Positions 1,281-42,225 of a DNA stretch of 47,829 nt are shown here, piece after piece. Source of the DNA: a virus; the IMG/VR virus record IMGVR_UViG_3300017990_000023, positions 1-47,829 of that record; one strand, written 5' to 3'. A program made the position numbers and the translations under genes. The notes below the pieces were generated by a model that was not told where the DNA came from, did not search any database, and saw nothing but the letters and a program-made list of their open reading frames with translations. Numbering within the stretch: position 1 is the first letter of the stretch; every line of letters begins with the position of its first letter.

Positions 1281-1344
1281 AGGATTGCGCGGGGGCGTCC
1301 AGTCGACCCCCTGCCTCTGCATCCTCGTACGAAGGAGCGTTCTG

Positions 1345-2070
1345 ATGCAGGCGCACGTAAGGTGGGTCTTAGCCGCACTGCTTCTCGTTATCCCCGGGGT
1401 TCTTCTCGGGGCCGAGCCCAAAGCAGTGATCGACGGTGAAAAGCTATCAAGGCCGGGAGACCTCGTGGTCCTCCGTACTACGGGCTCGGTTGGTACAGGG
1501 TTCGCCTGGAACATCGTTCCAGCTTCAGCCAAAAAGCACTGCTACCTCGCCGATGGCGGGAAGACGTGCATCTTCGCGACCAGGACCGAGGGCAAGTTCA
1601 CGTTCGTCTTGTCGGTGACCGCTGTGGACACCGACGCCATTGGGACTTGCATGCACGAGCTGGTCAACTCGGAGGACGGGACCATCCCGGACGATGAGGA
1701 GGAAGAAGAGGAGGAGGAAGAGGAGGACCCTGTTACACCAGAGAGCCAGTGGGCCAAGTGGGCACGTATCACCGCCGAGAAGTTGGTGGACATGCCCTGC
1801 GGCGGCCCAAGGGCAAACGCGGCCAAAGCTATCGCCGCCGCGATCGACTCTGCTGTGGCTGTTGGGGAGAAGAGCAGCCTCGACCTCAGCGAGTGCCGTG
1901 AAATCATGGCACAGAAAACCTCAGCCGCCGTGAGCGCTGACGTGCAGCGTAAGTGGAACGGCTTCTCCGTCGAGATGGACCGAGAGATCCGCAAGATCGA
2001 CGGATTGACCAAGGCCCAATGGCTAAAGGTCATGGCTTCCATTTCCGATGGCCTGAAGAAGGTGAGGTGA
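1345..2070 (+). CDS. Secreted Ig/PKD-like or chagasin-like domain protein, 241 aa
   Basis: The N-terminus is a clear signal peptide: MQAHVR, then the hydrophobic stretch WVLAALLLVIPGVLLGA, with likely cleavage near residue 23. There is no lipobox Cys and no twin arginine. Residues about 25-100 look like a beta-sandwich (GDLVVLRTTGSVGTGFAW, then TEGKFTFVLSVTAV). This resembles PKD/Ig-like domains common in secreted planctomycetal proteins and also recalls the NPTTGYxW loop of chagasin-type inhibitors of papain-like peptidases. A run of Glu (about residues 117-128) links to a helical C-terminal part of about 110 residues. The start at 1345 follows GAAGGA; the in-frame extension to 1249 lacks a binding site. 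The papain-fold gene begins 3 bases downstream. Confidence 0.72.
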   Translation: MQAHVRWVLAALLLVIPGVLLGAEPKAVIDGEKLSRPGDLVVLRTTGSVGTGFAWNIVPASAKKHCYLADGGKTCIFATRTEGKFTFVLSVTAVDTDAIGTCMHELVNSEDGTIPDDEEEEEEEEEEDPVTPESQWAKWARITAEKLVDMPCGGPRANAAKAIAAAIDSAVAVGEKSSLDLSECREIMAQKTSAAVSADVQRKWNGFSVEMDREIRKIDGLTKAQWLKVMASISDGLKKVR

Positions 2071-2073
2071 CCC

Positions 2074-2994
2074 ATGGACGGAACCGACTATGCCAAGCTA
2101 TGCGGTTGGGCAGCGGACATCGCCGAAGAAGAGTACGACCGGTTGGCTGGCAACTTTGTCAGCTTCAGTTGTGTCGGCGGCCTCACCGAACCTGGTCCTC
2201 CGATTTGGGAACCAGCGAAGAAAGTCAACGGTGGCAGCCACCTGGATACGTGGCGTCAGGAGACTGGCGACTGCGTTAGCATGGGGGCGACACAAGGCAC
2301 CGAGTATCTCCATTGCTACGAGATCGAAGTAGCGAAGGAGGAAGAAGAATTTCACCGGATATTCCCACCGTGCGTTTACGGCATGAGTCGTGTCATGCCC
2401 GACTGCGGTAACGGACGTCTGGGCCGAGGTGCTGGATCGACGGGCGCCTGGGCAGCAACGGCCATGATGAAGTACGGCCATCTGTTCGTCGACGACGAAG
2501 GTTGTCCCGAGTACAGCGGTGACCTGGCCGATAGCTGGGGATACCGTGGCGTGCCGGAGCAGTTCCAGAATCTCGCAAGAGACAACACCGTGAAGCAAGC
2601 CTCGCGGCTGCGATCGGTCGACGAGATCCGGACGGCACTCATCAACTACAACCCCTGCACCTACGCCCTCTACTTCAAGTACGGTAGCGGTGCCACGGAG
2701 TACAAGGGTTATCGAGTGTGCCGGCGTAACGATCCGGTCGGTGGGCACCAGGTGTGCTTGCTGGCGTGGATGGACGACCCGTTCCCTGCGGCGTTCATGT
2801 TGAACTCGTGGGGCAAGAGAGCACATACCGCAGGCTTGCCCGACAACGGCGAACCTCTCGGTGGTGCTTGGATTCGTGCCGAGGATCTTGAGACGGACCT
2901 CCGTCGAGAGAGCCCGGAGATCTACTCACTGTCCGGTTTCAGCGGCGTTGCTGCGAAGCCCTGGTGGGGACTCTTCGGCGGCCCGAAGACGTAA
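2074..2994 (+). CDS. Papain-fold (C1-like) cysteine peptidase, 306 aa
   Basis: The active-site pattern of papain-like peptidases is visible in order: an oxyanion-hole Gln and nucleophile Cys in QETGDCVSM (Q62, C67), the His in GGHQVCLLAW (H225), and the Asn in FMLNSWGK (N244). The last matches the classical NSWG motif. There is no signal peptide or obvious propeptide. The gap between Cys and His is of family size. The protein has many other cysteines. It follows the secreted Ig-like gene after 3 bases, so the two are almost certainly translated together. In a phage it might process virion or host proteins or act in lysis; the sequence does not decide which. Confidence 0.75.
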   Translation: MDGTDYAKLCGWAADIAEEEYDRLAGNFVSFSCVGGLTEPGPPIWEPAKKVNGGSHLDTWRQETGDCVSMGATQGTEYLHCYEIEVAKEEEEFHRIFPPCVYGMSRVMPDCGNGRLGRGAGSTGAWAATAMMKYGHLFVDDEGCPEYSGDLADSWGYRGVPEQFQNLARDNTVKQASRLRSVDEIRTALINYNPCTYALYFKYGSGATEYKGYRVCRRNDPVGGHQVCLLAWMDDPFPAAFMLNSWGKRAHTAGLPDNGEPLGGAWIRAEDLETDLRRESPEIYSLSGFSGVAAKPWWGLFGGPKT

Positions 2995-15394: not shown

Positions 15395-18300
15395 GACGTC
15401 GACGAATCGAGAAGCCGAAGAAGCGGCGTAAGATCACGCGGAAAGAGGCACAGGACGCTGTGTTCATCGAGAACCGGCGTAGGAAAATCGAGCAGAAAGG
15501 CATGTACCCGCTCAACGCACCGGGCATGCCTATACCCGGCCCCAACTTCGTACGACACGCTCAAGACCTCGGCGACGAGGACACCGAGCTATATAAGGAG
15601 CTGGTCCCGGACGAGAGTAAGAAGAGCGGTAAGAAGTCGGTAGACCGAGCCAAGATCGGCGACCAACTGCACGATCTATACCTGCGTGCTCTCCGCACAC
15701 CGGGCTTCACGCTACCGATCGAGATGCGTGGCGGCCTGATGAAGGAGGTTACGTTTGTCCCGGGGCACATCTGGGGTCAGCATATCCACCAGTACAAGGC
15801 GTCTACGGCCAACCAGGACATCGAGGTCCCGAGCGTCGACGGCCCACACCGTGCCGAGGTCATGGTCGTAGGCAAGATGCCTGGCAAGGAAGAAGAGCAG
15901 GAGTTCCGGAACCTGATCGGCCCGTCCGGTGAGGTGCTGGTCCGGCTGCTCAAGCTGCTGCGGGTGAAGGGAACACCGAGCTGGTATCTGACGAACCTGC
16001 TCAAGTTCCGGCCACCGGACGGCGGCTCTACCATCAAGGCGTCTTGGCGGAAGGACTGCATGCCGCTGCTCCACGAGGAGCTGCGTATCGTGCGGCCCAA
16101 GTACATCCTGTGCCTGGGCACCGATGCGTCCAATGCGGTCCTCGGCCCGAAGCACGGCGTGGGCTACATGGAGGGCCGCGTCGAGGAGCTGACGTACCCG
16201 ATCGGCATCAGGGGCAACGAGGTGCAGACGCACACGTCGCTCGTGATGACCGTGCTACATCCGGCGATGGTTGCCAGAGAGCAGGCCATGGAGCGGCAGT
16301 TGGAACGGGGCCTGTCCCGATTCAACATGCTCAAGAACGGTATCCGCTTCGACAAGGAAGAGAAGGGCATACGCCACGAGGTGGTCAGCGACTTGGACGA
16401 ACTCAAGGAGTTCCTCTTTGAGATGGAGCACGACCCCGAGAAGCACGACCGCATCATTGCGATGGACGCCGAGTGGCACGGTGAGCACGCTGTCAACGAC
16501 AATGCGTACCTCCGCACGATCCAGATTGCATGGAAACCCAAGCATGCACTCTGCGTCAAGCTTCGGAGCCAGGGCGGCAAGATAGCCTTCCGCGACGGCG
16601 ACGGCAAGCCTGCGATCAAGCGTGCGATCAAGATGCTACGTGACTACATCAAAGGAAAGAAAGGAGTCTACAAGAAGAAACGGATTGTCGGTCACTTCTT
16701 CAACTCTGACTTGGAGTACCTCATCGCCGCCGGCCTGGACATCCAGGATGAGTTCAAGGTCCCGCTGTACGACCTGGACCTGGACGAGGCCAGCCCGGCG
16801 CTGCGGAAGTTCTACCAGAAGAAGGGCTACAAGGACACGGTGCCGGCCTGGGTGAGGACCAGGTACGAGGGTGGAGCCGACACGGGCATGATGGCCCATG
16901 CGATCGAGGAGACCGGCGGCTACGGGTTGGAAGGCTTGCTGATGCGGTACACCACCTGCCCCAGGTACGACACCTGGCTACACGAGTGGCGTGCCGAGTA
17001 TTGCAAGGAGAACGACCTCAAGGCCGGAGCCCTCGAAGGGTATGGGGAGTGTCCTGACCATATCCTCTGTCCAACGCCCCAGGAGTGCGAGGAGCACGGG
17101 GTTCTCAACTATGCCGCATACGACGCCGATGGCACTTTGAGGCTCTTCTACGAGCTGTCAGAGCTTCTGGACTGCGATTACGACGGCAACTGCTGCCGTG
17201 AGCCGTTCTGGGAGGCGATGATCGCCACTCCGGCTGTCCTGGAGATCCATCAGAACGGTATCTGTGTCGACCGAGACCGGGCCGACTTCCTCACCGAAGC
17301 ATTCCTCAAGGCGAGGCTTGCCCAGGAGAAGAAGGTCAAGAAGTGGGCCAGGTGGAAGGACTTCAACGTCCGATCGGTCCAGCACGTCAAGGAGTACCTG
17401 TTCGGCGAGGATCTCAACGGCAAGGTGACCAAGGACGGAAGCATCGTACGAATCAGGCCGGACAAGGGCCGCTCTCTCTATCTGGACCCGCTCATCACCA
17501 CCAGCAAGCCGCCGAAGTTCTGGCGGGAGGTGCAAGAGCTGGGGAAGGAGAAGGAGTACAGCCCGTCGACCAACAAGATGGTGCTCGCTATCCTCGCTCA
17601 GGAGAACGAAGAATTCTCTGACCAGATCACCTGGATTAGAGATTACCGGTTCCTCGACCAAGTGTTGAAGACCGTGCTTCGCCCTCCTGTCGAGGACGAT
17701 GAGGGCAACTGGGTTTACGAACAAGCAGAAGGAGGTACGGAGAACCTGATCTACGAAGCTGGCCTGGTTAGCCAGATCTGCGACGACGGCAAGGTACGCA
17801 CCCACATCTACCAGACAAAGGAAACTGGCAGGTGGGCGTCGGCCAGACCGAACCTGATGAACTTCAGCAAGCAGCGCGACCCGGATTACAAGCGGCTGCT
17901 CGGCGCAAAGAAGAACGAGAAGGGCTGGTGGGTTGGAGGAAACTACAAGTACCCACTGCGATCCTTGCTGACTGCGTCCCCGGGTCATCTACTGATCGAG
18001 GCTGACTACGTCGGAGCTGAGCTGTACGGCATGGCCATCATGTCTGGTGATCCCACCATGATCGACCATGCCACACGCAACCAGCTCCCTGAGGATGATC
18101 CAAACTTCTACGACATCCACAGCAACGTAGCCGTCCTTGCGTTCAACCTGCCCTGCAAGCCGACCAAGAGCGGCATGAAGGACATCGGCAAGGAACACCT
18201 CCGGGTGATTGCCAAGAGCGTGATCTTCGGGATCGCCTACGGTCGAGGTGCCAAGGCCATCGCACTCGCTGCGAAGGAGCAGGGCGTCTACGTGACCGTC

Positions 18301-18864
18301 GACGAGGCCCAGCAGGTCATTGATACCATCTTCGCGATGTATCCCGGCCTGATCCCGTTCTTCGACGAATGCAAGAAGAGGGCTACCGAGGACAAGTGGC
18401 TGTGCCACTGCTTCGGTCGCTTCCGCCGCTTCCCGTACGCGGCGGACTACAAGTTGGAAGGCGAGTTCGAGCGGCAAGCTATGAACTTCCCGATCCAGGG
18501 CATGATTGCCTCGGCAGTGAGCCGGGCCATTGCCTATCTCAAAGACTATAAGGACCAGGGTGACGATCCGAACCTGTTTCGGATTTTGTTGCAGATCCAC
18601 GACGCCTTGCTTGTTGAGGTGCCCTACGAGCACGTTGAGTTTGTCGCTCAAGAGGTGCTGCCGTGGGCAATGCGTGAGATGGTCCCGATCTACCCAAGTC
18701 GCCTCGACGGTACTCCGACAGGCGACGGACCATACTTCCTGGGTATCGAGGCAGATGCTATGCGTCACTGGGGCGAAAAGCTCACAGAGGAAGAAGGTTT
18801 GGCCTGCGGCCTGGCCCAGAAATCCTGGCATGGAGATGGCATAGCTGTCGGATACTGGAAGTAG
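15379..18864 (+). CDS. UDG-like/3'-5' exonuclease/family A DNA polymerase fusion, 1161 aa
   Basis: Three modules follow a basic leader. Residues ~157-314 resemble family 4 uracil-DNA glycosylase (GKMPGKEEE, YLTNLLKFRPP, TVLHPAM), but the usual motif 1 Glu is Lys (GKMPG rather than GEAPG) and the Cys of KCRPP is Phe. Base excision and the iron-sulfur cluster are therefore probably lost. Residues ~354-594 carry a DEDDy exonuclease (DAEWHG, GHFFNSDLEY, YAAYDAD). Residues ~614-1124 are the polymerase: GRWASARPNLMNF, motif A IEADYVGAELY, motif B KSVIFGIAYG, motif C QIHDALLVEV. A similar N-terminal UDG-like domain is known in SPO1-type phage polymerases. GTG 15379 is the chosen start; ATG 15502 is an alternative. 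Confidence 0.9.
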   Translation: MEKALRRRRIEKPKKRRKITRKEAQDAVFIENRRRKIEQKGMYPLNAPGMPIPGPNFVRHAQDLGDEDTELYKELVPDESKKSGKKSVDRAKIGDQLHDLYLRALRTPGFTLPIEMRGGLMKEVTFVPGHIWGQHIHQYKASTANQDIEVPSVDGPHRAEVMVVGKMPGKEEEQEFRNLIGPSGEVLVRLLKLLRVKGTPSWYLTNLLKFRPPDGGSTIKASWRKDCMPLLHEELRIVRPKYILCLGTDASNAVLGPKHGVGYMEGRVEELTYPIGIRGNEVQTHTSLVMTVLHPAMVAREQAMERQLERGLSRFNMLKNGIRFDKEEKGIRHEVVSDLDELKEFLFEMEHDPEKHDRIIAMDAEWHGEHAVNDNAYLRTIQIAWKPKHALCVKLRSQGGKIAFRDGDGKPAIKRAIKMLRDYIKGKKGVYKKKRIVGHFFNSDLEYLIAAGLDIQDEFKVPLYDLDLDEASPALRKFYQKKGYKDTVPAWVRTRYEGGADTGMMAHAIEETGGYGLEGLLMRYTTCPRYDTWLHEWRAEYCKENDLKAGALEGYGECPDHILCPTPQECEEHGVLNYAAYDADGTLRLFYELSELLDCDYDGNCCREPFWEAMIATPAVLEIHQNGICVDRDRADFLTEAFLKARLAQEKKVKKWARWKDFNVRSVQHVKEYLFGEDLNGKVTKDGSIVRIRPDKGRSLYLDPLITTSKPPKFWREVQELGKEKEYSPSTNKMVLAILAQENEEFSDQITWIRDYRFLDQVLKTVLRPPVEDDEGNWVYEQAEGGTENLIYEAGLVSQICDDGKVRTHIYQTKETGRWASARPNLMNFSKQRDPDYKRLLGAKKNEKGWWVGGNYKYPLRSLLTASPGHLLIEADYVGAELYGMAIMSGDPTMIDHATRNQLPEDDPNFYDIHSNVAVLAFNLPCKPTKSGMKDIGKEHLRVIAKSVIFGIAYGRGAKAIALAAKEQGVYVTVDEAQQVIDTIFAMYPGLIPFFDECKKRATEDKWLCHCFGRFRRFPYAADYKLEGEFERQAMNFPIQGMIASAVSRAIAYLKDYKDQGDDPNLFRILLQIHDALLVEVPYEHVEFVAQEVLPWAMREMVPIYPSRLDGTPTGDGPYFLGIEADAMRHWGEKLTEEEGLACGLAQKSWHGDGIAVGYWK

Positions 18865-18867
18865 TAT
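18852..18867. promoter_or_regulatory. Imperfect palindrome resembling the core at 1258
   Basis: ATACTGGAAGTAGTAT has 5-base arms (ATACT and AGTAT) around six bases. The spacing is the same as in the perfect palindrome ATACTGTATACAGTAT at 1258-1273. It spans the end of the polymerase gene just before tmk. The resemblance is modest and may be chance. Confidence 0.25.
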
Positions 18868-18885
18868 ACTTAGTGGAAAAACACC

Positions 18886-19587
18886 ATGCTCATTGTGATT
18901 GAAGGAATAGACGGCTCGGGGAAATCCACCCAAGCCAGTAAACTTGCTACGTCACTAACCAGCCTCGGGCTCAGCGTTGGGACTCTCCGGTTCCCACGAT
19001 ACGACGTGACGAGAGGTGGAGAACTCGTCGGGGACTTCCTCGACGGAAAGTTTGGAAAAATCCTGTCGGATCTTCATCCAAAACTTGTTTCTCTTCCGTA
19101 CATGATTGACAGGTACGAAAGCAAGTCGTGGTTGGAAGCCAATATGATGGTACACGACGTGGTCGTTATCGACCGCTTCGTCGCATCCAATGCGGCCCAC
19201 CAAGTAGCCAAGCTCCCAAAGGATGATTGGGACGAGTTCATTGTCTGGGTGGCGACGATGGAGTTCTGCGTGTTCAAACTCCCCACACCCAACCTCACTA
19301 TCGAGTTCAAACTCCCCGTGGAGCAGGCGGCAAAGTTGATCGCCAAAAAGAAGAAACGGTCGTACACCGATGCGGAGTTCGACCTACATGAAGCCGATAT
19401 GGACTACCAGCGCCAAGTAGCCCAGGGTTACCGCGAAGCGGATTTCTCCGGTGAATTTAGTGAAGAATGGTGCGTGTTCGATGTCGACCGAAATGGACAC
19501 CTGCGAGACGAGAACGAACTCGCGGCAGCAGTGTTCGCGAAGGTCAAAGAAACTCTCTCAAGAAAAGGAGTGAAGTTGGATGGCTAA
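18886..19587 (+). CDS. tmk: Thymidylate kinase, 233 aa
   Basis: This enzyme phosphorylates dTMP to dTDP. The P-loop EGIDGSGKST starts at residue 6. The Tmk signature follows in DRFVASNAAHQ. A lid-like basic segment (KKKKRSYTDAE) precedes an acidic C-terminal helix region. The gene is separated from the polymerase by 21 bases that include a TATACT element. It completes a thymidine supply route with the ThyX at 28301. It overlaps the ssDNA-binding candidate by 8 bases. Confidence 0.9.
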   Translation: MLIVIEGIDGSGKSTQASKLATSLTSLGLSVGTLRFPRYDVTRGGELVGDFLDGKFGKILSDLHPKLVSLPYMIDRYESKSWLEANMMVHDVVVIDRFVASNAAHQVAKLPKDDWDEFIVWVATMEFCVFKLPTPNLTIEFKLPVEQAAKLIAKKKKRSYTDAEFDLHEADMDYQRQVAQGYREADFSGEFSEEWCVFDVDRNGHLRDENELAAAVFAKVKETLSRKGVKLDG

Positions 19588-21874
19588 GAAAAAGACCTCC
19601 AAGAAGAAGACGACCCCGCGTAAAGGAACGAAGAAGAAGACCTCGACCCGAGCGTCGAAGCGTCAAGGACGAGTCAATCGCGGCCTCAAGCGGCACGTCG
19701 ATGACTACACCAATGAGAAGTTCGGCGGGGGAGACTCGATGATCCCGCGCAACGACTTCACCATCAACCCGAAGTGCGGGCGCGTCCAGCTCGTCAGCGG
19801 GTTCGGAAGCAAAGGCCCGATCGTTGCTCGGTTCTGGCCGATGCTCGACTACAACGACCCGGAGAACAATCTCCAGCGGGGTCGTATCAAAGCCGTCGAA
19901 GGAAACGCCGGCATGGGCCACTGGCTGCGGCGTGTCCGGTGCGCTTCCTTCATCGGACTCAAGGACTGCGAGCAGATCACGTACTGCCTGTACCGGGCAG
20001 GGGACAAGGAGCGTAGGGCCAGAAGCCTCTACATCAAGCTCCAGCGTGCCGTGATCGACGCTCACGACGCCGGCGAGTTCTCCTCCAGCCGAGCCTGGGA
20101 CCCCAAGTGGAACAAGCTCGTGCCGAAGAAGGGAAGCAAGAAGAGTGGCAGCGGGCCGTTCCCCAACGCGGGCTACAAGTGGTTCGCACAGGGCGAATGC
20201 TTCCGCCACGGCGATCGGGATTACCTGGAGAACCGAGACGTTCCTCTCGGTGGCCACCCGGACGATCCCCTCCCCGTGTTCCAGTTCTCCGTCAGTGTCG
20301 GTGACAACATCTGCAAGATGATGGACCGAAAGAAGAAGAGCTGGGACGGAGATCCGGAAGAGGACCCCGCAGGCCCCTACGTGTACGGTGACCCGATCGG
20401 CGTGTACGATCCGGAGACCGAGGAGCTGAACGGCGGCGTGATCTTCACGATCTGGAACCCCGGCAGCTACACCCTCAAGCCGTTGCCGAAGCACAACTCG
20501 TGGGACGGCGAAGTCGCTCCGATCCAGGGCTACGAGGTTGGTGTCGCTCCTTCGTACAAGCACGAGGGAGAGGTCTACAAGCCCTACCGGGATTCCGATG
20601 GGACTCTGGAGATCTTCAAGAAGGTCCAGCTCTGGACCCAGTCCGCCGACGAGGATGTCACGGACGACACCAAGGGCCTGCTCTACTTCCCGAGCGTGGA
20701 AGAGGAGTTCGTGCTGCTCTGCCGCGCCTACAAGAAGGTGCCGAAGCTGTTGCAGCACGCCCTGGCCGACGATTGGACAAGCGTCATGTCCGACGAGGCA
20801 CAGGCCATCCTTGGCGACCGTGTCCAAGCCGTTGTCCCTGGTGACGACGAGGAGTACACGGAGTCGGGTGAGCCCGAAGCCTACGAGGACGAGGACGAGT
20901 TCGACGACGACTTCGACGAAACCGACGACAAGCCGACTCGGACGGACCCGGTTGTTCCGGACGACGAGGAGGACGAGTTCGCGGACGACGACGAGGAAGG
21001 CGACGAGCCCGAGCCGGAAGACGACGAGGACGAGTTCGACGAAGATGAAGCCGAAGACGAGGAGGAAGGCGACGACGGCGACGACTACTTCGGCGAAGCC
21101 CTCGAAGGCGACGAGGACGAGGAGGAGGTGTTCGACTTCGAGGTTCTCGGGGCCGCTGCCGACGAGGGCGATGCCGACGCGATCGGTGCGTTGACGGAGA
21201 TTGCCACCGAGCGTGGTGTTGATCCGGACCTCTACGGGACCTGGAAGGAGCTGGCCGACGCTCTCGAAGATGGTGCCGGCAACGCTCCCGAGGAGGAGCC
21301 TGCGGACGAACCCGAAGACGAAGAGGTCGACGAGTTCGCCGATGACGACGAGGCTCCGGAGGACGACGAGCCCGAAGAGGACGACGAGCCCGAAGAGGAC
21401 GAAGCGCCCGAGGACGACGAGCCCGAAGAGGACGAAGCGCCCGAGGACGACGAGGCCCCTGAGGATGAAGAGTCCGAGGAAGGGTTCGAGGAAGACGAGG
21501 GTGACTCCGACGAGTTCGACCCCGACGAGAAGATCAAGGAGATGCAAGAGCAGATGGAGGCCAAGCGTACGAAGGCCACCGGTGAGGCATCGAAGCGATC
21601 TTCAAGCCGGTCTTCCAAGAAGAAGACGCCCCCGAAGAAGTCGGCCAAGAAGTCGACGCCGAAGAAGACTGCGAAGTCCAAGCCGGCGAAGAAGTCGACC
21701 CCGAAGAAGTCGACAACGAAGAAGAAGACACCGGCAAAAAAGCCGACAAAGGGGTCTGGAGGCAAAGGAACCTCTTCGACTAAGAAGGCCCCGAAGAAGT
21801 CCACCAAGAAGTCGACCCCGAAGAAGTCGACCAAGAAGAAGACTCCTAAGAAGTCGACCAAGAAGAAGTCCTGA
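19580..21874 (+). CDS. Putative ssDNA-binding protein with acidic and histone H1-like tails, 764 aa
   Basis: The layout is striking. A basic tail (residues 1-37) contains the motif GRVNRGLK. A globular domain of about 380 residues follows. Then come about 220 residues dominated by Asp and Glu with PEDDE repeats, interrupted by a short helical insert (ADEGDADAIGALTEIATERG). Finally there is a Lys/Ser/Thr/Pro tail of about 100 residues (KKSTPKK repeats) like bacterial histone H1 or AlgP tails. I infer a gp32-like ssDNA-binding role from its position beside the recombinase and the acidic tail. The globular domain itself carries no motif I can name. The start at 19580 overlaps tmk by 8 bases behind AAAGGAG. 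A terminator follows at 21900. Confidence 0.6.
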   Translation: MAKKKTSKKKTTPRKGTKKKTSTRASKRQGRVNRGLKRHVDDYTNEKFGGGDSMIPRNDFTINPKCGRVQLVSGFGSKGPIVARFWPMLDYNDPENNLQRGRIKAVEGNAGMGHWLRRVRCASFIGLKDCEQITYCLYRAGDKERRARSLYIKLQRAVIDAHDAGEFSSSRAWDPKWNKLVPKKGSKKSGSGPFPNAGYKWFAQGECFRHGDRDYLENRDVPLGGHPDDPLPVFQFSVSVGDNICKMMDRKKKSWDGDPEEDPAGPYVYGDPIGVYDPETEELNGGVIFTIWNPGSYTLKPLPKHNSWDGEVAPIQGYEVGVAPSYKHEGEVYKPYRDSDGTLEIFKKVQLWTQSADEDVTDDTKGLLYFPSVEEEFVLLCRAYKKVPKLLQHALADDWTSVMSDEAQAILGDRVQAVVPGDDEEYTESGEPEAYEDEDEFDDDFDETDDKPTRTDPVVPDDEEDEFADDDEEGDEPEPEDDEDEFDEDEAEDEEEGDDGDDYFGEALEGDEDEEEVFDFEVLGAAADEGDADAIGALTEIATERGVDPDLYGTWKELADALEDGAGNAPEEEPADEPEDEEVDEFADDDEAPEDDEPEEDDEPEEDEAPEDDEPEEDEAPEDDEAPEDEESEEGFEEDEGDSDEFDPDEKIKEMQEQMEAKRTKATGEASKRSSSRSSKKKTPPKKSAKKSTPKKTAKSKPAKKSTPKKSTTKKKTPAKKPTKGSGGKGTSSTKKAPKKSTKKSTPKKSTKKKTPKKSTKKKS
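19667..19696 (+). repeat. Repeat copy A: 30 bases shared with 21953-21982
   Basis: This stretch encodes GRVNRGLKRH in the putative ssDNA-binding protein and matches 26 of 30 bases of 21953-21982, which encodes GRVDRGLKPH at the very start of the RecA-like protein. Most differences are silent or conservative. Confidence 0.6.
21358..21480 (+). repeat. Tandem acidic coding repeats
   Basis: Degenerate 18-base units of the type GAGGACGACGAGCCCGAA encode repeated EDDEPE and EDEAPE within the acidic tail of the 19580 product. They are low-complexity coding repeats that can expand or contract by slippage. Confidence 0.7.
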
Positions 21875-28300: not shown

Positions 28301-29347
28301 GTGTCAAAGAAAGAAAGTCGCTTCCAAGAACCCGACGTCGACTTCGTCGGGTATCCCGTTATCAACGCTCCTGGCCTGCACCGCTATCTTGAGCGGACGG
28401 GCAACACGGACTTTGAGCAGTCGTGGCGTGAGGCCGAGGAGGAAGGGCTGTCCGACGCAGAAATTCTCTGCTCGGTCTTCTCGAAGCTGTGCTACAAGTC
28501 GTTGACGGTCGGGCAGAATGCGAACATAACCCGGGTCAGGGACATCAAAGACAACCTGGTCTCGTGCTTCGACACGGGGCACGGCAGCATATTTGAACAT
28601 GTCATGTTCAACTTTATCGTCAGCCCATGCTCCCGCGTCTTTACGCACGAGCTGGTCAGACACAGGATTGGCGTGGCCTTCAGCCAGACCTCGGGCCGCT
28701 ACGTCCGGCTCGACCACATCCCAATAATCTGGGACCCAATCCTGGACGGCGACATCCCGCATGGCGGCCTGGGAGGCGGTACGATCCGCGATCTCTGGGA
28801 TCACCACCTCCAGAAGACGGAGGACCTGATCTACCTGACCGAGTGCTTCAAGGGGCTGCGCAAGCCGGCTCCAGGTCACGAAGATAAGGCACCCGAGTAT
28901 TGGATTCATTCCAGGCTCGGCCAGGACCCCGAGGTTGCGGCCCAGTGGAAGTGGGTCCCCGACAACTCGGGAGACTTCGCCCACAAGAAGAAGTTGACCA
29001 GTGCGATCCGGAGGATTGCGCCCAACGGGCAGGTCAACGAGATCGCGTACTCGGTGAATCTGCGATCGCTGCGACACACGATCCTGATGCGTACGGCCCG
29101 GGTAGCCGAACGGGAAATCCGGATCGTCTTCAACAAGATCTACGACTCGTTGAAGGACAAGTGGCCTTTGATGTTCCACGGGGCCAAAGAAGAAATCGTG
29201 GACGGCATCCCCGAGATCACCGGCATGAAGTGCCAGCCTTACGAGAAGCCGGCGGAGATGGTCCTGGAAGAAATGAGCGACGAGGAGCTGGTCCTCTACC
29301 TCAAGACGCGGCCCGACGTTATCCAGCGGGTCAACCTCGCAACCTAA
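28301..29347 (+). CDS. thyX: Flavin-dependent thymidylate synthase ThyX, 348 aa
   Basis: ThyX makes dTMP from dUMP using FAD and methylenetetrahydrofolate. The signature RHR (residues 120-122) begins RHRIGVAFSQTSGRY, the form with one residue more than the RHRxxSxNExSxRY type. The preceding FEHVMFNFIVSPCSR strand and the following segment fit the family, as does NLRSLRHTILMRTARVAEREI near the C-terminus. At 348 residues it is longer than most bacterial ThyX (about 220-260), with inserts around residues 140-230. GTG 28301 has GAAGGAACTTAAC upstream. With tmk it supports dTTP supply. Confidence 0.93.
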   Translation: MSKKESRFQEPDVDFVGYPVINAPGLHRYLERTGNTDFEQSWREAEEEGLSDAEILCSVFSKLCYKSLTVGQNANITRVRDIKDNLVSCFDTGHGSIFEHVMFNFIVSPCSRVFTHELVRHRIGVAFSQTSGRYVRLDHIPIIWDPILDGDIPHGGLGGGTIRDLWDHHLQKTEDLIYLTECFKGLRKPAPGHEDKAPEYWIHSRLGQDPEVAAQWKWVPDNSGDFAHKKKLTSAIRRIAPNGQVNEIAYSVNLRSLRHTILMRTARVAEREIRIVFNKIYDSLKDKWPLMFHGAKEEIVDGIPEITGMKCQPYEKPAEMVLEEMSDEELVLYLKTRPDVIQRVNLAT

Positions 29348-30485: not shown

Positions 30486-31496
30486 ATGAAAAAGTTGACC
30501 GTCGTAGCTGAGGGTGTCGGCAGAAACTCTGTCGCCATCCTTGGTCGGATGCGCCGTGAGGGTAAGAGACCCGACGCGGTAGTATTCGCAAACGTCGGTA
30601 GCGAGAAGAGAGGCACGTACGAGTTTGTGCCTCACCTGCGACAATGGCTGGCGGAGAACGACTTCCCCGGTCTTACTGTCGTGCGCTACACACCAAAGAC
30701 TGCACCGTATTGCTCGATCGAGGGCAATATGATCTTGAACGCGACGTTGCCAGGAGCATGTTTCAACTGGGGCTCCTGCACGATGAAGTTCAAGATAGAC
30801 CCGCAGAACCAGTGGTATCGCCACTGGGAGCCGGCTCAGCAGGTCTGGGCTGCCGGCGAGAAGATCACGAAGTTCATCGGCTTCGACGCCGGCGAGGAGT
30901 ACAGAACCTCACGGGCCGCCGACAAGGCCCATACGAGCGAGCAGGACAAGTTCGACATCCAGTACCCGCTTCAAGACTGGGGCATGGATCTCGATGCTTG
31001 TATCGAGGAGATCATCAGGATGGGGTTGCCAGTGCCGCCGAAGTCGGCCTGCTATTTCTGTCCTAATCAAAAAGAAGACGAAGTCGAGCTACTCGACGAG
31101 GAAGACCGGGCCAGGATCATCTTGATGGAGATCGTGGCGGAGCCATACAACCGCAAGGTCGACGGGCTCTGGCGACGGCCACGCAAGCGCGACGGTCGCC
31201 CGGGTAGCATCACTGAATACATTCTGGAGCATGAGCTGCCGTTCACGCCGCTCGACGAGATCTGCCGCCTGGTGGTTCTCAACCCAGAATGCAAGAAGGC
31301 CCGATCGGGCGCAACCTTCAACCCGCCCCACAAAGAGGTGTCGCTCACCGAGCTGATGGAGCAGCGGGGCCACTTCGTGCCTGAGGTTCGCCTCCAGGCC
31401 AAGGGAGAGATGGAGGGCATTTACCTTGAAGACGCCCGCGAGGTCCCCCCGGACCAAGAGGACGAGCTTCACAGCTACTTTGGAGACATCGTATGA
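30486..31496 (+). CDS. PAPS reductase-like ATP-pyrophosphatase, 336 aa
   Basis: A member of the adenine nucleotide alpha-hydrolase/PAPS reductase superfamily. The PP-loop appears as VAEGVGRNSVAILG (about residues 6-19), a variant of SGGxDS. Two Cys-containing motifs follow: CFNWGSCTMKFK and, near residue 187, CYFCPNQKEDE. They match phage proteins usually labelled phosphoadenosine phosphosulfate reductase. In phages these may activate a nucleobase or transfer sulfur rather than reduce sulfate, and DndC-type DNA phosphorothioation enzymes are distant relatives. No dnd partners are visible here. ATG 30486 is chosen over the upstream frame, which is a shadow. Confidence 0.75.
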   Translation: MKKLTVVAEGVGRNSVAILGRMRREGKRPDAVVFANVGSEKRGTYEFVPHLRQWLAENDFPGLTVVRYTPKTAPYCSIEGNMILNATLPGACFNWGSCTMKFKIDPQNQWYRHWEPAQQVWAAGEKITKFIGFDAGEEYRTSRAADKAHTSEQDKFDIQYPLQDWGMDLDACIEEIIRMGLPVPPKSACYFCPNQKEDEVELLDEEDRARIILMEIVAEPYNRKVDGLWRRPRKRDGRPGSITEYILEHELPFTPLDEICRLVVLNPECKKARSGATFNPPHKEVSLTELMEQRGHFVPEVRLQAKGEMEGIYLEDAREVPPDQEDELHSYFGDIV

Positions 31497-31906: not shown

Positions 31907-32307
31907 AATGGTCCGACATGTTCGAGGACTACAAGATCCTCACGGACGCAGACAAGGTCCGTAAGAACAGTCGTGACGACTTCGGATTGGGGTATGGTTG
32001 GTATTTTGTCGGGGGCAGCTATGTCCCGGGCAAAACGCCGACCACCCCGGTCTGGACTGTCGTCTATGCAAAGCCTCGCGAGAAGATTCGAGAGGAAGTG
32101 GAGCCGCACATGTGCGAGGGCCGCATCGGCTCAAGCCAACTACACTTCTGGCCGAAAGACAACACCTGGCGTGTCGTCTTCGGCGATAGCCACATGATTG
32201 CCCAGCACCGATGGCCTGAAGAGGTCACCGAGATCCCCGAGGACATCTTGGATCTGCTGGCAGAAAAAGAGGAAGAAGATGCCGAGACTGAAGTATCAGG
32301 ACATTAA
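31903..32307 (+). CDS. Hypothetical protein, 134 aa
   Basis: ATG 31903 overlaps the preceding stop and has GGGAGGG nine bases upstream. The product is Trp/Tyr-rich (LGYGWYFVGGSYVPGK) with an acidic, helical C-terminus. It overlaps the Topo VI-A-like gene by 29 bases. There is no recognisable motif. Confidence 0.5.
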   Translation: MKWSDMFEDYKILTDADKVRKNSRDDFGLGYGWYFVGGSYVPGKTPTTPVWTVVYAKPREKIREEVEPHMCEGRIGSSQLHFWPKDNTWRVVFGDSHMIAQHRWPEEVTEIPEDILDLLAEKEEEDAETEVSGH

Positions 32308-33304
32308 GTTCCGAGATCAGAGACGCCTGACGGTAATCAAGCAGGCTGACCAGATCCTACGAGCTTACGCTAAGGACGGTGACGATCTAACGCTGCGACA
32401 ACTCTACTACCAGTTCATCGCCAGGGACTTGTTCCCGAGCGACTGGGTCGACAAGAAGACCGGCTCGAAGAACTGCGATGCCAACTACGACCGGCTCGGG
32501 GACATCATCGCCTCGGGTCGTCTGATGGGCATGATCGACTGGAAGCACATTGTCGATCGTGGCCGCCGGCTTCGTAGCCTGAGCCACTGGTGGGGAGCTG
32601 CCGCGATCATCCAGAGTGCATCCAAGTGGTTCAACCTGGACCTCTGGGAGAACCAGGAGCGCCGGATCGAGTGCTGGGTCGAGAAGGACGCCTTGATCGG
32701 CGTGCTCGAAACCGTCTGCACCCAGAACGACGTGCCCTACTATAGCTCCCGAGGCTACAACTCCTGGACCGAGATCTGGGAGGCGAGCCAGCGGGTGGTC
32801 AAGCGTTGGAGCGAGGACGGCCAGCCCACGACCATCTTGTACCTGTCAGACCATGACCCAAGCGGCATGGACCTGACACGGGACACCAAGGACAAGCTCG
32901 AAGGGTTGGTCGGTGCTCATCTCAACAACGAAGATGTCGACGACGTCCTGGAGGTCAAGCGGATCGCTCTGACCCAGGACCAGATCGACGAGTACGACCC
33001 GCCGCCGCAGCCGGCCAAGCAGTCCGACGCCAGATTCATCAGGTACGTCAACGAGACGGGCCTCGACGAGTCCTGGGAGTTGGATGCTCTCGAACCGTCT
33101 GTCATGCGAGAACTGATCCAGAGCGAGATCGACCAGCTCAAGGATCAGAAGCGATGGGACAAGGACACCGCCGAGGAGGTGAAGATACGGAAGCTCCTCG
33201 CAAAGGCCGCCGACAACTGGGACAAGCTCGAACCTGTCCTCACCGGCGAGTCGAAGATCATCAAGATGAAAGGAAAAAAGAAGGATGACGGTGAAAGTTC
33301 GTAG
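32279..33304 (+). CDS. Topo VI-A/Spo11-like (Mini-A type) Toprim protein, 341 aa
   Basis: The N-terminal winged-helix region carries TLRQLYYQFIARDLF, with Tyr43/Tyr44 in the position of the DNA-cleaving tyrosine of Topo VI-A and Spo11. A Toprim domain follows, with E135 (CWVEKDAL) and D191-x-D193 (YLSDHDPSGMDL). That order of 5Y-CAP domain then Toprim is the Topo VI-A/Spo11 arrangement. No TopoVI-B-type GHKL ATPase gene is visible in the window, as in the standalone Mini-A proteins of some phages and plasmids. It may nick or break DNA or be a nuclease-like relic. Confidence in the fold is good, in activity moderate. Confidence 0.75.
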   Translation: MPRLKYQDIKFRDQRRLTVIKQADQILRAYAKDGDDLTLRQLYYQFIARDLFPSDWVDKKTGSKNCDANYDRLGDIIASGRLMGMIDWKHIVDRGRRLRSLSHWWGAAAIIQSASKWFNLDLWENQERRIECWVEKDALIGVLETVCTQNDVPYYSSRGYNSWTEIWEASQRVVKRWSEDGQPTTILYLSDHDPSGMDLTRDTKDKLEGLVGAHLNNEDVDDVLEVKRIALTQDQIDEYDPPPQPAKQSDARFIRYVNETGLDESWELDALEPSVMRELIQSEIDQLKDQKRWDKDTAEEVKIRKLLAKAADNWDKLEPVLTGESKIIKMKGKKKDDGESS

Positions 33305-34205
33305 CAATGTTCCGCTGGTATCTGGAACCAACAAGCATCCCCAGGTGCGCAAGATTCCAATGAAGGGCGTGAAAGCGAAGCCAAACTTCCCTATGCACGG
33401 TGTGCCGGAAAAGATCACGGTACACGAGGGAGACTTTGTCGCCTATATCGAGAGGACCTACACGGCAGGCCACGAGGGCGATCCGGAGCACTGCCATCAG
33501 CATCATCGGCTGGCCAGGGTGTTCGCGATCGCCCATACGGACGGGTGTGGTGAAGAGCTGAAGCCTCTTCACTTGGCCGTCATCACTGTCGACGAGGCGT
33601 TCAAGTTTGCCTACCTGCGGCTCATCGACGCCAGAGACGTCTGCGGCGCCACCGAGCAGCACGAGCCGCTCCCACGCTGGTTCTTTGGCGGGGACTTCAA
33701 CATCCAGCAGGCCGAGAGGATCTTGCGGATGCACCATTACGGCTCGCTCAACAACCGTTTTCTCGGGGAGCACCTGGACGCCGCTGACAACCTGGTGTAT
33801 GCCCGCACTCAGCAGGCTTACAGGTCTGTGTTCGTCTTTGACGACAAGGGCGTGCCCAGGATGCTCCAGCAATGCGAGAAGGACTTCGAGGACTGGTTGC
33901 TCGGCGAGGGCTTTACTCCCGGCAAGCAGCTAATCCCTGAGAGCGGCAAGGAGGGCGTGAGCAGCCGGAGGTGCGCGGAGTGTGGTGAGGATACCGGTCA
34001 CCTCTGGTCGGAGCTGATCGAGAGGGACAAACCGGAAGGCGAGCGTGCTGTCGTCTTCTACCATCGGAAGTGCGCGGATGAGATATTCCATGTGACGCAC
34101 GCTTACAATCTGCTAAGATGGTTCTTCGAGAAGAACATGATTCTCCAGCAGGAGATCGTGCGAATCGAGGACCACGCCAACCGTATAGGGAGGGTAATCA
34201 AGTGA
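33285..34205 (+). CDS. Hypothetical protein with Cys-rich C-terminus, 306 aa
   Basis: It overlaps the Topo-like gene by 20 bases. A His-rich stretch (GDPEHCHQHHRLARV) around residue 70 and CAECGEDTGH followed by YHRKCAD in the C-terminal third may each bind zinc. The final helix (RWFFEKNMILQQEIVRIEDH) looks like a coiled coil. I recognise no family. Confidence 0.55.
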   Translation: MTVKVRSNVPLVSGTNKHPQVRKIPMKGVKAKPNFPMHGVPEKITVHEGDFVAYIERTYTAGHEGDPEHCHQHHRLARVFAIAHTDGCGEELKPLHLAVITVDEAFKFAYLRLIDARDVCGATEQHEPLPRWFFGGDFNIQQAERILRMHHYGSLNNRFLGEHLDAADNLVYARTQQAYRSVFVFDDKGVPRMLQQCEKDFEDWLLGEGFTPGKQLIPESGKEGVSSRRCAECGEDTGHLWSELIERDKPEGERAVVFYHRKCADEIFHVTHAYNLLRWFFEKNMILQQEIVRIEDHANRIGRVIK

Positions 34206-34429
34206 CCCCGTTATTTGCCTGGTTTGCACCAGGACCCGTAGAAATCACGATCATCGGGATCATCGCGATCCTGCTGTTCGGAAACCGCGTGCCCAAGCTG
34301 GCACGGTCCCTGGGCTCGTCGATCGTCGAGTTCAAGAAAGGAATCTCCGGGGTCACCGAAGACACGAAGGAGATCGTGGAAGAACTGGACTCGGCGGGTA
34401 AGGCTGCCAAGGAGGCAGTGGACTCTTGA
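34202..34429 (+). CDS. tatA: TatA-family protein, 75 aa
   Basis: A complete TatA: a short periplasmic N-terminus, a transmembrane helix of about 16 residues (PVEITIIGIIAILLF, with polar Glu14), the F26-G27 hinge, P31, and an amphipathic helix (ARSLGSSIVEFKKGISG, residues 34-50). A charged soluble tail then fits TatA length. Cellular TatA forms the pore of the twin-arginine translocase. It sits among nucleic-acid genes in an overlapping operon (GTG at 34202 overlaps the previous stop), so it belongs to the phage transcript. No TatC is present and I saw no twin-arginine signal peptide in the window. It resembles planctomycetal TatA. Confidence 0.85.
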   Translation: MTPLFAWFAPGPVEITIIGIIAILLFGNRVPKLARSLGSSIVEFKKGISGVTEDTKEIVEELDSAGKAAKEAVDS

Positions 34430-34710
34430 CCGAATACGAACCTGCCATCCCGAAGGGTGGCCGTCTTACCCATGCCAAGATCAAGGGCGGATGGGCCGCC
34501 ATGTGCGGCTACGCCCCCAGCGCCCCGAATCGCTTCCAGATGAAAGACCGATCCGGGTGGAGAACCTGGATTCACGCCAACCATAAAGGCATTACATGCG
34601 CGAAATGTCTTGCCAAGATCGAGAAGGAGAAACAGTGTCAATCCGAGAGCAAATCGAAGCCAAGCTCAAAAAGGAGCACGTCCCGCAAGCGGCGATCGAC
34701 GCAGCATTAG
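34426..34710 (+). CDS. Small basic hypothetical protein, 94 aa
   Basis: A TTG start at 34426 overlaps the TatA stop. The product has one CxxC (TCAKCLAK) with a preceding Cys and Trp residues (GGWAAMCG), which could form a small zinc finger, then a Ser/Lys/Arg tail. The tail lies in the 76 bases overlapping the next gene, so it may be partly passive. The start codon is inferred from coupling and is uncertain. Confidence 0.45.
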   Translation: MTEYEPAIPKGGRLTHAKIKGGWAAMCGYAPSAPNRFQMKDRSGWRTWIHANHKGITCAKCLAKIEKEKQCQSESKSKPSSKRSTSRKRRSTQH

Positions 34711-36470: not shown

Positions 36471-37213
36471 AGAAACGTCCTAAGAAGAAAAGGCCATCCA
36501 AGCAGGACAAAGACTTGATGGCCGGCGTGGAGAAGAAGCCCCCACCTAAGAAGCCCAAGAAGAAAAAGAAGCCAGCAACGCCCAAGGGTAAGGAGCTGGC
36601 CGAGCTGGAGAAGAACACCCAGTCCACTCCGGATCGGGAAGACCAGCTTGCAAGGCTGGAGGGGTTCTTCGTGTCGGTCGACGACACCACCCCAATGATC
36701 TTCGCCGGCATCGACCCGGGCATGGAGGGAGCGCTCGGGTTTATCCACCCGACCGACAACAAGCAAACCATTGCTATCGACATCCCTTCAACGATGTTCG
36801 AGACCTCTAAGAAAACGAAGAGCGGCAAGGGCAAGAGGAAGCGGTCTGTCTACGACTACGGTCGTATCAACCAATACTTCGATGTCATCGAGCCCCATGC
36901 CGGTAAGATTCAGCTATGCTTGGAGCAGGGCCAGACCCGGGCGACCGACAACGGTATCACCGGGCTGGCCGTGGGCATTGGCTACGGTATGTGGCCGCTC
37001 TTCCTGCTGAGGATGGGTATCTCGTGTCACGAGGTCGTTCCGACCGTCTGGAAGGGAAAGATGAATCTATGGAAGAAGGACAAGGAGTTCTCACGGTTGT
37101 ACGCCCAACGGCTATTCCCGTCAGCTCCGTTGTTCAACAAGTGCCATCACAACCGGGCCGAGGCCCTGTTATTGGCGGAGTATCTAAGGAGGCTACATGT
37201 TTCTGACTCCTAA
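36467..37213 (+). CDS. RuvC-like Holliday junction resolvase with lysine-rich N-terminus, 248 aa
   Basis: The first ~40 residues are Lys/Pro-rich (KKPPPKKPKKKKKP). The RNase H-like core follows: a first Asp in AGIDPGMEGALGF (about residue 80), a Glu in LCLEQGQ (about 151), and the last motif in HNRAEALLLAEY (about 226). This matches RuvC family nucleases that cut four-way junctions. It would resolve recombination intermediates left by the RecA-like and UvsW-like proteins. It overlaps the next gene by 17 bases. Confidence 0.78.
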   Translation: MKKRPKKKRPSKQDKDLMAGVEKKPPPKKPKKKKKPATPKGKELAELEKNTQSTPDREDQLARLEGFFVSVDDTTPMIFAGIDPGMEGALGFIHPTDNKQTIAIDIPSTMFETSKKTKSGKGKRKRSVYDYGRINQYFDVIEPHAGKIQLCLEQGQTRATDNGITGLAVGIGYGMWPLFLLRMGISCHEVVPTVWKGKMNLWKKDKEFSRLYAQRLFPSAPLFNKCHHNRAEALLLAEYLRRLHVSDS

Positions 37214-37877
37214 GAAACAAGGAAAGGTGTATAAGCATGCACGGAGCAACCTCATCCACTTCCTCGGCACGGACGCGGAGACTCATCGGGTGTGCCTCTT
37301 TTGGGCTTACTTTGGCCTGCTTGCCCTTGCTCGTGCCGGGCTGCGGGGTGTTCTGCAAGCAGGATCGTGTTCCTGGATCATGGTCCCCGAAGAAGAAGTT
37401 GCGACCGCCGACCCAAACTCGTTCTCGATGGTCTGGGACCCGGACGATCCGCTTAGCAAAACCGCGATGTCGGAGGGGCGTCTCCCGGAGATGCACTGCT
37501 GGCTGGCAACGACGGGGCCGAAAGACGACTACCGACCAGCAGACGAGTGGGAGATAGTCGATCTTGCCGCCGGCCAGATCCCGAAGATGGCTGCCGAGTT
37601 TGACCTGGAGTGGCGGGGCAAGCTGCCACCGCAATACTTCTGGTGCAAACAAGGGCAGATGGAAGGTTGCATCTATGAACCGAACCGTGAAGCGACTCTG
37701 TTCGCTGACGGGTTGCTGAAACAACTTGTTGACCAAGGAAAGCTACCCCATGTCTCGGAAATCCTCCAAAGGGAAAGAGCAAATAAAACTGGCAAGACAA
37801 ACAGTCTACAAAGGGGACTGTCTAAGCGTCGTGCAAAAGCGCTGCAAAAAAGGAACCGTCGATCTCGTCGTAGCTGA
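37197..37877 (+). CDS. Hypothetical protein, 226 aa
   Basis: The last 42 codons overlap the DNA methyltransferase gene by 128 bases, out of frame, and read as a basic low-complexity tail (SKRRAKALQKRNRRSRRS). The body has a hydrophobic patch (FWAYFGLLALARAG) and several Cys. It may be membrane-peripheral. No function is recognised. Confidence 0.5.
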   Translation: MFLTPKKQGKVYKHARSNLIHFLGTDAETHRVCLFWAYFGLLALARAGLRGVLQAGSCSWIMVPEEEVATADPNSFSMVWDPDDPLSKTAMSEGRLPEMHCWLATTGPKDDYRPADEWEIVDLAAGQIPKMAAEFDLEWRGKLPPQYFWCKQGQMEGCIYEPNREATLFADGLLKQLVDQGKLPHVSEILQRERANKTGKTNSLQRGLSKRRAKALQKRNRRSRRS

Positions 37878-41825: not shown

Positions 41826-42225
41826 ATCGCTGGTTCCCGACTCTCTCGTAGACGTCTGGATCTTCTGCGTTCATCGAGAGCTGGAGGAGCGCCCCGGGGC
41901 GGTCCCGGGCTACATCAAAGAAATACAGGACCAGATCTCCGAGTGGGTACTGGACACCGGCAACTTGATCGTAATGCCAGGGGCGGTCAATATCACCGAC
42001 AAAGACGTCAGCCTGGCCGTAACCTACGTGAGAGCCGCGAGTCATGGCCAAAAAGAAATCAGGAAAGCCGAAGAGCACGTTCGGGAAGCTGCTCGACCGG
42101 ATGCCAACAAGGGAAGCCAGGCGGACGCTGATCGAGGCGACAAGCAAGCAGACAAGCCCAGCGGAGGCGGCGGCGACAGCGGCAGCAAGCCCGGAGGCGG
42201 ACTCAAGGTTCCAGACCTTCCGTGA
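41794..42225 (+). CDS. Hypothetical protein with Gly/Lys-rich overlapping tail, 143 aa
   Basis: ATG 41794 has GGAG six bases upstream, better than ATG 41782 or 41788. Residues 1-85 look like a normal small protein (LVDVWIFCVHRELEE). The last ~60 residues overlap the 42044 gene by 182 bases, out of frame, and are low-complexity (PSGGGGDSGSKPGGGLK). The tail may be a by-product of the overlap. Confidence 0.45.
   Translation: MTKHPIPSVAESLVPDSLVDVWIFCVHRELEERPGAVPGYIKEIQDQISEWVLDTGNLIVMPGAVNITDKDVSLAVTYVRAASHGQKEIRKAEEHVREAARPDANKGSQADADRGDKQADKPSGGGGDSGSKPGGGLKVPDLP

Follow-up and report, generated by a model that had tools for sequence, protein, structure and literature searches.

A phage-encoded TatA, probably of planctomycete type, and twin-arginine signal genes beside tatA in other viral contigs

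What use could a phage make of a gene for TatA if it brings none for TatC, and which proteins might such a subunit serve? The question arises from IMGVR_UViG_3300017990_000023, a linear viral fragment of 47.8 kb that was analysed over its full 47,829 nucleotides (hereafter the window). A 75-residue ORF on the plus strand at 34202–34429 (GTG start; translation VTPLFAWFAPGPVEITIIGIIAILLFGNRVPKLARSLGSSIVEFKKGISGVTEDTKEIVEELDSAGKAAKEAVDS, then the stop) had been described in a first-pass annotation as a TatA homologue with a transmembrane helix, an FG hinge, a proline and an amphipathic helix, and independent lines of evidence now agree with that description. The ORF matches the Pfam family TatA_B_E (PF02416) over residues 11–57 (3.7e-12; 45.7 bits against a curated cut-off of 21), a profile result that bears out the family assignment proposed earlier. 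The top NCBIfam model is tatAE (1.3e-11), while tatB is far weaker (6e-4; 20.3 bits, cut-off 56.5); on these scores the protein appears clearly nearer to tatAE than to tatB, though its 43.8 bits for tatAE lie under that model's cut-off of 53.9. A profile combining the window TatA with its relatives hits TatA proteins of solved structure (9e07 at 7e-13; 7b7o, 2mn6/7, 2lzr/s and 2l16 between 7e-13 and 1e-8). The AlphaFold2 model (pLDDT 81) consists of a helix at residues 12–26, a break at 27–28 that corresponds to the FG hinge, and a helix at 29–74; a Foldseek search of the PDB with this two-helix model, which is too small to be informative, gave no match.

The predicted transmembrane helix (codons 12–26, 34235–34279, +) contains the invariant residues E14 and F26. 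It is followed by the stretch from the FG hinge to the conserved proline (codons 26–31, 34277–34294, +), in which F26, G27 and P31 are invariant in an alignment of 28 viral and planctomycete TatA proteins, and by an amphipathic helix with the conserved motif SIVEFKKG (codons 29–50, 34286–34351, +; modelled helix from residue 29), in which E43, F44, K45 and G47 are invariant. Judged from its sequence, the product is a member of TatA_B_E and probably a genuine TatA.

The gene stands among replication and nucleotide genes, outside any lysis cassette. Its GTG start overlaps the stop of the upstream gene (GTGA), as had been noticed at first reading, and its stop overlaps the TTG start of the next ORF (TTGA; 34426–34710, +, 94 aa). 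A purine-rich, Shine-Dalgarno-like stretch, GGGAGGG, was read by eye 5' of the GTG (34187–34193, +; TATAGGGAGGGTAATCAAGTGACC). The overlapping upstream gene (33285–34205, +) encodes 306 aa to which Pfam and PHROG searches assigned no family and for which no viral relative was found. Two genes upstream of tatA lies a topoisomerase VI A-like protein (32279–33304, +; phrog_6247, 2.6e-85, scanned from 32198) with 36–42% identity to many cultured phages; a search for its relatives returned one contig, which ends before the tatA position and shares no other gene. PHROG matches also agree with the earlier naming of topoisomerase-like, exonuclease-like (6e-5) and RuvC-type resolvase-like (phrog_1770, 5.6e-16) genes alongside tatA. 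The GC content (0.579) and GC3 (0.75) of tatA are the same as those of neighbouring genes. Together with the start/stop overlaps on both sides, this native composition does not point to a chimera around 34 kb, which the first-pass annotation had named as a possible refutation of its reading.

The window itself is a phage contig. It carries genes for SbcC-like, DnaB-like helicase, primase, thymidylate kinase, UvsX-like, ThyX-like, topoisomerase-like and RuvC-type resolvase-like proteins, and it ends in a portal gene, a phage hallmark, that is cut by the contig end (46427–47827, +; 26–29% identity over >90%). It is the portal together with the DnaB-like helicase, primase and UvsX-like genes that identifies the contig as a phage. 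Relatives of the portal are found in Salmonella phage Arash and in Vibrio phages of about 180 kb; because the fragment ends in a portal related to phages of that size, it is probably part of a large genome. PAPS-reductase-like and thymidylate-synthase-like genes were also seen, at 30486–31496 and 28301–29347. No TatC was found in the 47.8 kb fragment, and our motif rule for twin-arginine (RR) signals found none beside tatA and accepted none elsewhere in the fragment; both absences had been noted at first reading and hold for the window. Two candidate RR motifs were set aside: one at 37237 lies inside a longer ORF (37197–37877) in another frame, and one upstream of MQAHVRW near 1300 is too far from the hydrophobic stretch.

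We then compared the window TatA with bacterial TatA proteins. The best 80 matches, taking one genome per species, come nearly all from Planctomycetota, as the earlier mention of planctomycetal TatA had anticipated; those under other names belong to a 'Nealsonbacteria' bin that shares the tandem-tatA layout of planctomycetes, to a Gemmatimonadota MAG and to one further bacterium. The sequences closest to the window TatA are bacterial and 54–65% identical over part of the protein. Its FG-to-EFK spacing is also of the planctomycete type, one residue shorter than in the standard motif: a DNA pattern written for the planctomycete type fits 84 of 86 loci (the other two are parts of a single viral contig that lacks the gene), and the standard pattern fits none. 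This affinity of the gene suggests that the TatA is of planctomycete type and that the host is probably a planctomycete. TatC is present in four of five planctomycete genomes. Searching 392 planctomycete genomes for a prophage capsid gave a best identity of 34%, which does not decide the host. In several planctomycete loci (L007–L011, L014, L015 and L017) two tatA-type genes often stand in tandem with differing tails, and one of the two often ends in an APKFEPP-like motif.

Is the window an isolated case? IMG/VR was scanned twice with DNA patterns, giving 53 and 11 contigs, and translation then sorted true TatA from chance matches. Besides the window, 28 contigs, all of them metagenomic fragments, carry tatA, in each case above the Pfam cut-off. 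TatC is absent from 27 of them, and the sole contig with TatC is a fragment of 6.9 kb, probably of host DNA. About 12 of the contigs form one clade, six members of which have HK97 capsid genes, five of these six also having a portal gene; the presence of tatA, HK97 portal and capsid in the same contigs indicates that bona fide tailed phages have tatA in their genomes. These hallmark genes were tested with three Pfam families, to which some viral contigs gave no match. Among nine clade members the median pN/pS of tatA is 0.33 and no pair exceeds 0.56 (uncorrected, with synonymous sites near saturation), which argues that tatA is kept by selection in the clade.

A TatA tree (69 columns, weak) requires five label changes compared with 16.1 in shuffles (0 of 500 as low) and places the window TatA within a viral lineage (SH-aLRT 80). 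In this tree, of the kind envisaged at first reading, viral TatA proteins cluster more than chance would give, with the window among them, although the support is weak. Because several other viral TatA proteins are placed outside that group, tatA was probably acquired more than once; an alignment this short gives no firm date or number of transfers. With the other tatA phages, the window phage has hardly anything in common except tatA. Two viral contigs, G010 (135 kb) and G003 (27 kb), have a TatA near that of the window on the tree and otherwise unrelated gene content. In the clade, contigs G002, G013, G014 and G016/G019 have short genes, CsrA-like by eye (MALVLTRRPGQKLILERPRIEIIVDS...), just 5' of either tatA or the RR gene next to it.

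These comparisons bear on whether tatA is a mere passenger or artefact, i.e. a fragment of host DNA that joined the contig recently and has no phage function. The bacterial origin of the closest sequences would fit such a fragment, but the native GC and GC3, the overlaps at both ends, the lack of bacterial neighbours, the recurrence of tatA in 28 other viral contigs and its selection in the clade all oppose it, and we regard it as hardly credible.

The main new result, as read with our own motif rule, is that RR-signal genes stand beside viral tatA. The rule (used in place of TatP or SignalP) requires RR-x-hydrophobic near the start followed by an uncharged hydrophobic stretch. Of 25 non-redundant viral contigs, 17 have an RR-signal ORF on the same strand and within 1 kb of tatA, compared with 2.34 expected if positions were random (0 of 20,000 randomizations as high), and the other eight lack one. 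The density of such signals is 0.291 per kb near tatA versus 0.038 far from it, while control versions of the rule with KK, RK or KR give 0.000–0.009 per kb near tatA, with no excess. Examples include genes directly 5' of tatA in G016 (MNRRELIQWLSAGTVGIAASV), overlapping it in G002 (MNETRRTLLQSIFTVPALAAVP), directly 3' in G024 (MNRRRFLQLAAGAGVATATMA) and 3' in G001 (MINRRNFFGSVSVAAVAIGSKAVLG), and contig G027 has five RR genes within 3 kb of tatA; weak calls also occur (e.g. in G005). In the gene directly upstream of the clade tatA, both arginines are invariant in six divergent homologues that are 23–31% identical to the reference. An AlphaFold2 model of the conserved RR-signal protein (pLDDT 55) was set aside.

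Adjacency of RR genes has the look of a translocase subunit with its cargo, and it therefore favours export of phage proteins. The suggestion in the first-pass annotation that the gene 'could help export a phage protein' thereby gains strong comparative support. Its further argument, that the missing RR signal favours interplay with host Tat or membrane permeabilization, holds for this fragment but not for TatA phages at large: RR genes are common beside tatA in the relatives, and the TatA positions are kept. The window has no adjacent RR substrate, so that function is assigned to its phage by analogy; and because it shares almost only tatA with the others, the analogy crosses unrelated phages.

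We hold with moderate confidence, from sequence comparison and this analogy, that a phage TatA of planctomycete type would join the host TatC in exporting folded proteins encoded by the phage. The steps would be as follows: (i) tatA was acquired by a phage whose genome is probably large; (ii) the N-terminal helix of its product would insert in the host inner membrane, with the amphipathic helix lying on the cytoplasmic face; (iii) the protein would partner the host TatC, because the phage fragment brings none, and a TatB-like host protein; (iv) the additional TatA would raise or retune Tat capacity during infection; and (v) phage-encoded folded proteins with twin-arginine signals would then cross the membrane. 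Substrates of the window phage may be encoded in genome regions beyond the sequenced fragment, or may differ from the adjacent type. A broader proposal, which we hold with about as much doubt as confidence, is that a portable Tat module, made up of a phage TatA and at least one RR cargo gene and run on the host TatC, occurs in phages, chiefly those of Planctomycetota; its cargo would include the conserved family of small proteins encoded immediately 5' of tatA, enzymes of papain-like type, and proteins with pieces resembling the capsid or portal proteins of the phage itself.

Alternatively, TatA could be an auxiliary gene that tops up the host's own Tat export during infection or replaces a short-lived subunit once host expression stops. 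The planctomycete type of the protein, the lack of a visible substrate in the window and a TatC that presumably stays from the host would suit this idea; it gives no reason, however, to expect unrelated phages to have RR genes of their own beside tatA, and we think it unlikely. Single phage-encoded subunits of host machines are often inhibitors, and with no TatC present a dominant-negative TatA might poison host Tat complexes or exclude superinfecting phage. However, the TatA hallmarks are intact, no helix appears broken, and the RR genes adjoining tatA in relatives need a working system, which makes such an inhibitor quite improbable.

A different possibility is that uncoupled TatA thins or permeabilizes the host membrane in a holin-like, TatC-independent manner, leading to lysis or depolarization. 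PMC9527704 makes the case that membranes are weakened in similar ways by TatA and by the small holin TpeE, and the absence of TatC from 27 of 28 viral relatives would be compatible with such a role. But TpeE is without the essential TatA positions (PMC9527704), while the positions that host TatA proteins conserve (E14, FG, P31 and EFK) are kept here; TatA_B_E is the only Pfam match of the window protein, which has no PHROG match, and no similarity to TpeE/BhlA was found. A holin has no need for RR-signal genes clustering beside it, the window tatA lies between unknown and nucleic-acid genes rather than in a lysis cassette, and in two relatives with a lysis-like block tatA is >4 kb from that block. 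We therefore rank this explanation, which seems unlikely, clearly second to the export of phage proteins with host TatC.

Which window proteins might be connected with export? A papain-like (C1-type) protein without an RR signal is encoded at 2074–2994 (+), with Q62, C67, H225 and N244 invariant in a papain-like alignment; its profile matches cathepsin H at 0.014, and it is 27% identical to a protein of G020 (2e-21, pairwise). Directly before it, 1339–2070 (+) encodes an exported protein with a Sec-type signal (MQAHVRWVLAALLLVIPGVLLGA, by eye), 28% identical over 75 aa (3e-6) to G020:17948–18166; no Pfam match was found for this product, which on our reading may have a beta-sandwich fold. The exported and papain-like pair thus occurs in the window (1339–2994), in G020 (17843–20330) and, by position, in G006 (58315–60232, minus strand). 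The papain-like relatives in the TatA phages G020 and G006 bear RR signals (MSISRRNLLLAGGAAFLSS and MKRRDFIKAAALPFFLPKISLAF). Thioredoxin-like and holin-like genes stand beside the pair in both contigs, the holin-like call having been made by eye and not confirmed by Pfam. The shared block is possibly a lysis or periplasmic module. As the window papain-like copy has no signal, the shared pair is a lead to, and not evidence for, the window cargo.

Several RR-signal proteins near viral tatA also hold short head-protein-like stretches (in G018, G007, G024, G027 and G023 (L192)). The RR protein of G018 (L177:19174–19812) matches Phage_capsid at 4.4e-7, and its contig has a real capsid gene as well; that of G007 (contig position 41962 onward) is 27% identical over 74 aa to the contig's own capsid; that of G024 (minus strand, about 90.4 kb) resembles a capsid-like ORF (judged N4-gp56-like by eye), with about 38–40% identity over 53 aa; and two RR proteins of G027 (L201) match the C-terminus of its own P22-type coat.

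Phages use host Sec and make holins. In the literature searched (partial coverage, few subscription journals), no description was found of a phage TatA without TatC and with RR cargo in its relatives, nor any earlier description of a phage-supplied subunit of a folded-protein export machine. A tblastn search of 50,697 phage records gave no match to the window TatA or the clade TatA, and standard-type TatA gave weak matches only, in unannotated records (best E 2e-3); no annotated cultured-phage match was found. Phages may run part of the host's protein-export system. If they supply TatA together with cargo, Tat would be an infection pathway with periplasmic effectors, and phage TatA would offer a natural means of studying how a TatC core is retuned when TatA is added in excess or comes from a foreign source. 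The gene could also give access to phages whose hosts are probably Planctomycetota.

Compared with known systems, the window protein has in common with the TatA/TatE family (PF02416, TIGR01411) and the planctomycete paralogues its length, N-terminal helix, FG hinge, proline, amphipathic helix and EFKKG. It shares with planctomycete TatA the FG-to-EF spacing that is shorter by one residue, but it is phage-encoded, without tatC and without the second tatA that stands alongside in many planctomycetes. The Bacillus TatAd–TatCd system with PhoD is a minimal TatAC system with a linked substrate; most viral relatives likewise have the subunit gene beside an RR substrate gene, whereas no tatC is present here and the window has no adjacent substrate. 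The small holins TpeE and BhlA also have one short transmembrane helix followed by an amphipathic helix, but they are unrelated to TatA in sequence (PMC9527704), while the window protein has the TatA hallmarks. A marine virus with a circular genome has an annotated TatC (figure legend, PMC10564846): there, as here, a Tat component is encoded on a virus genome, but it is TatC in that virus and TatA in ours.
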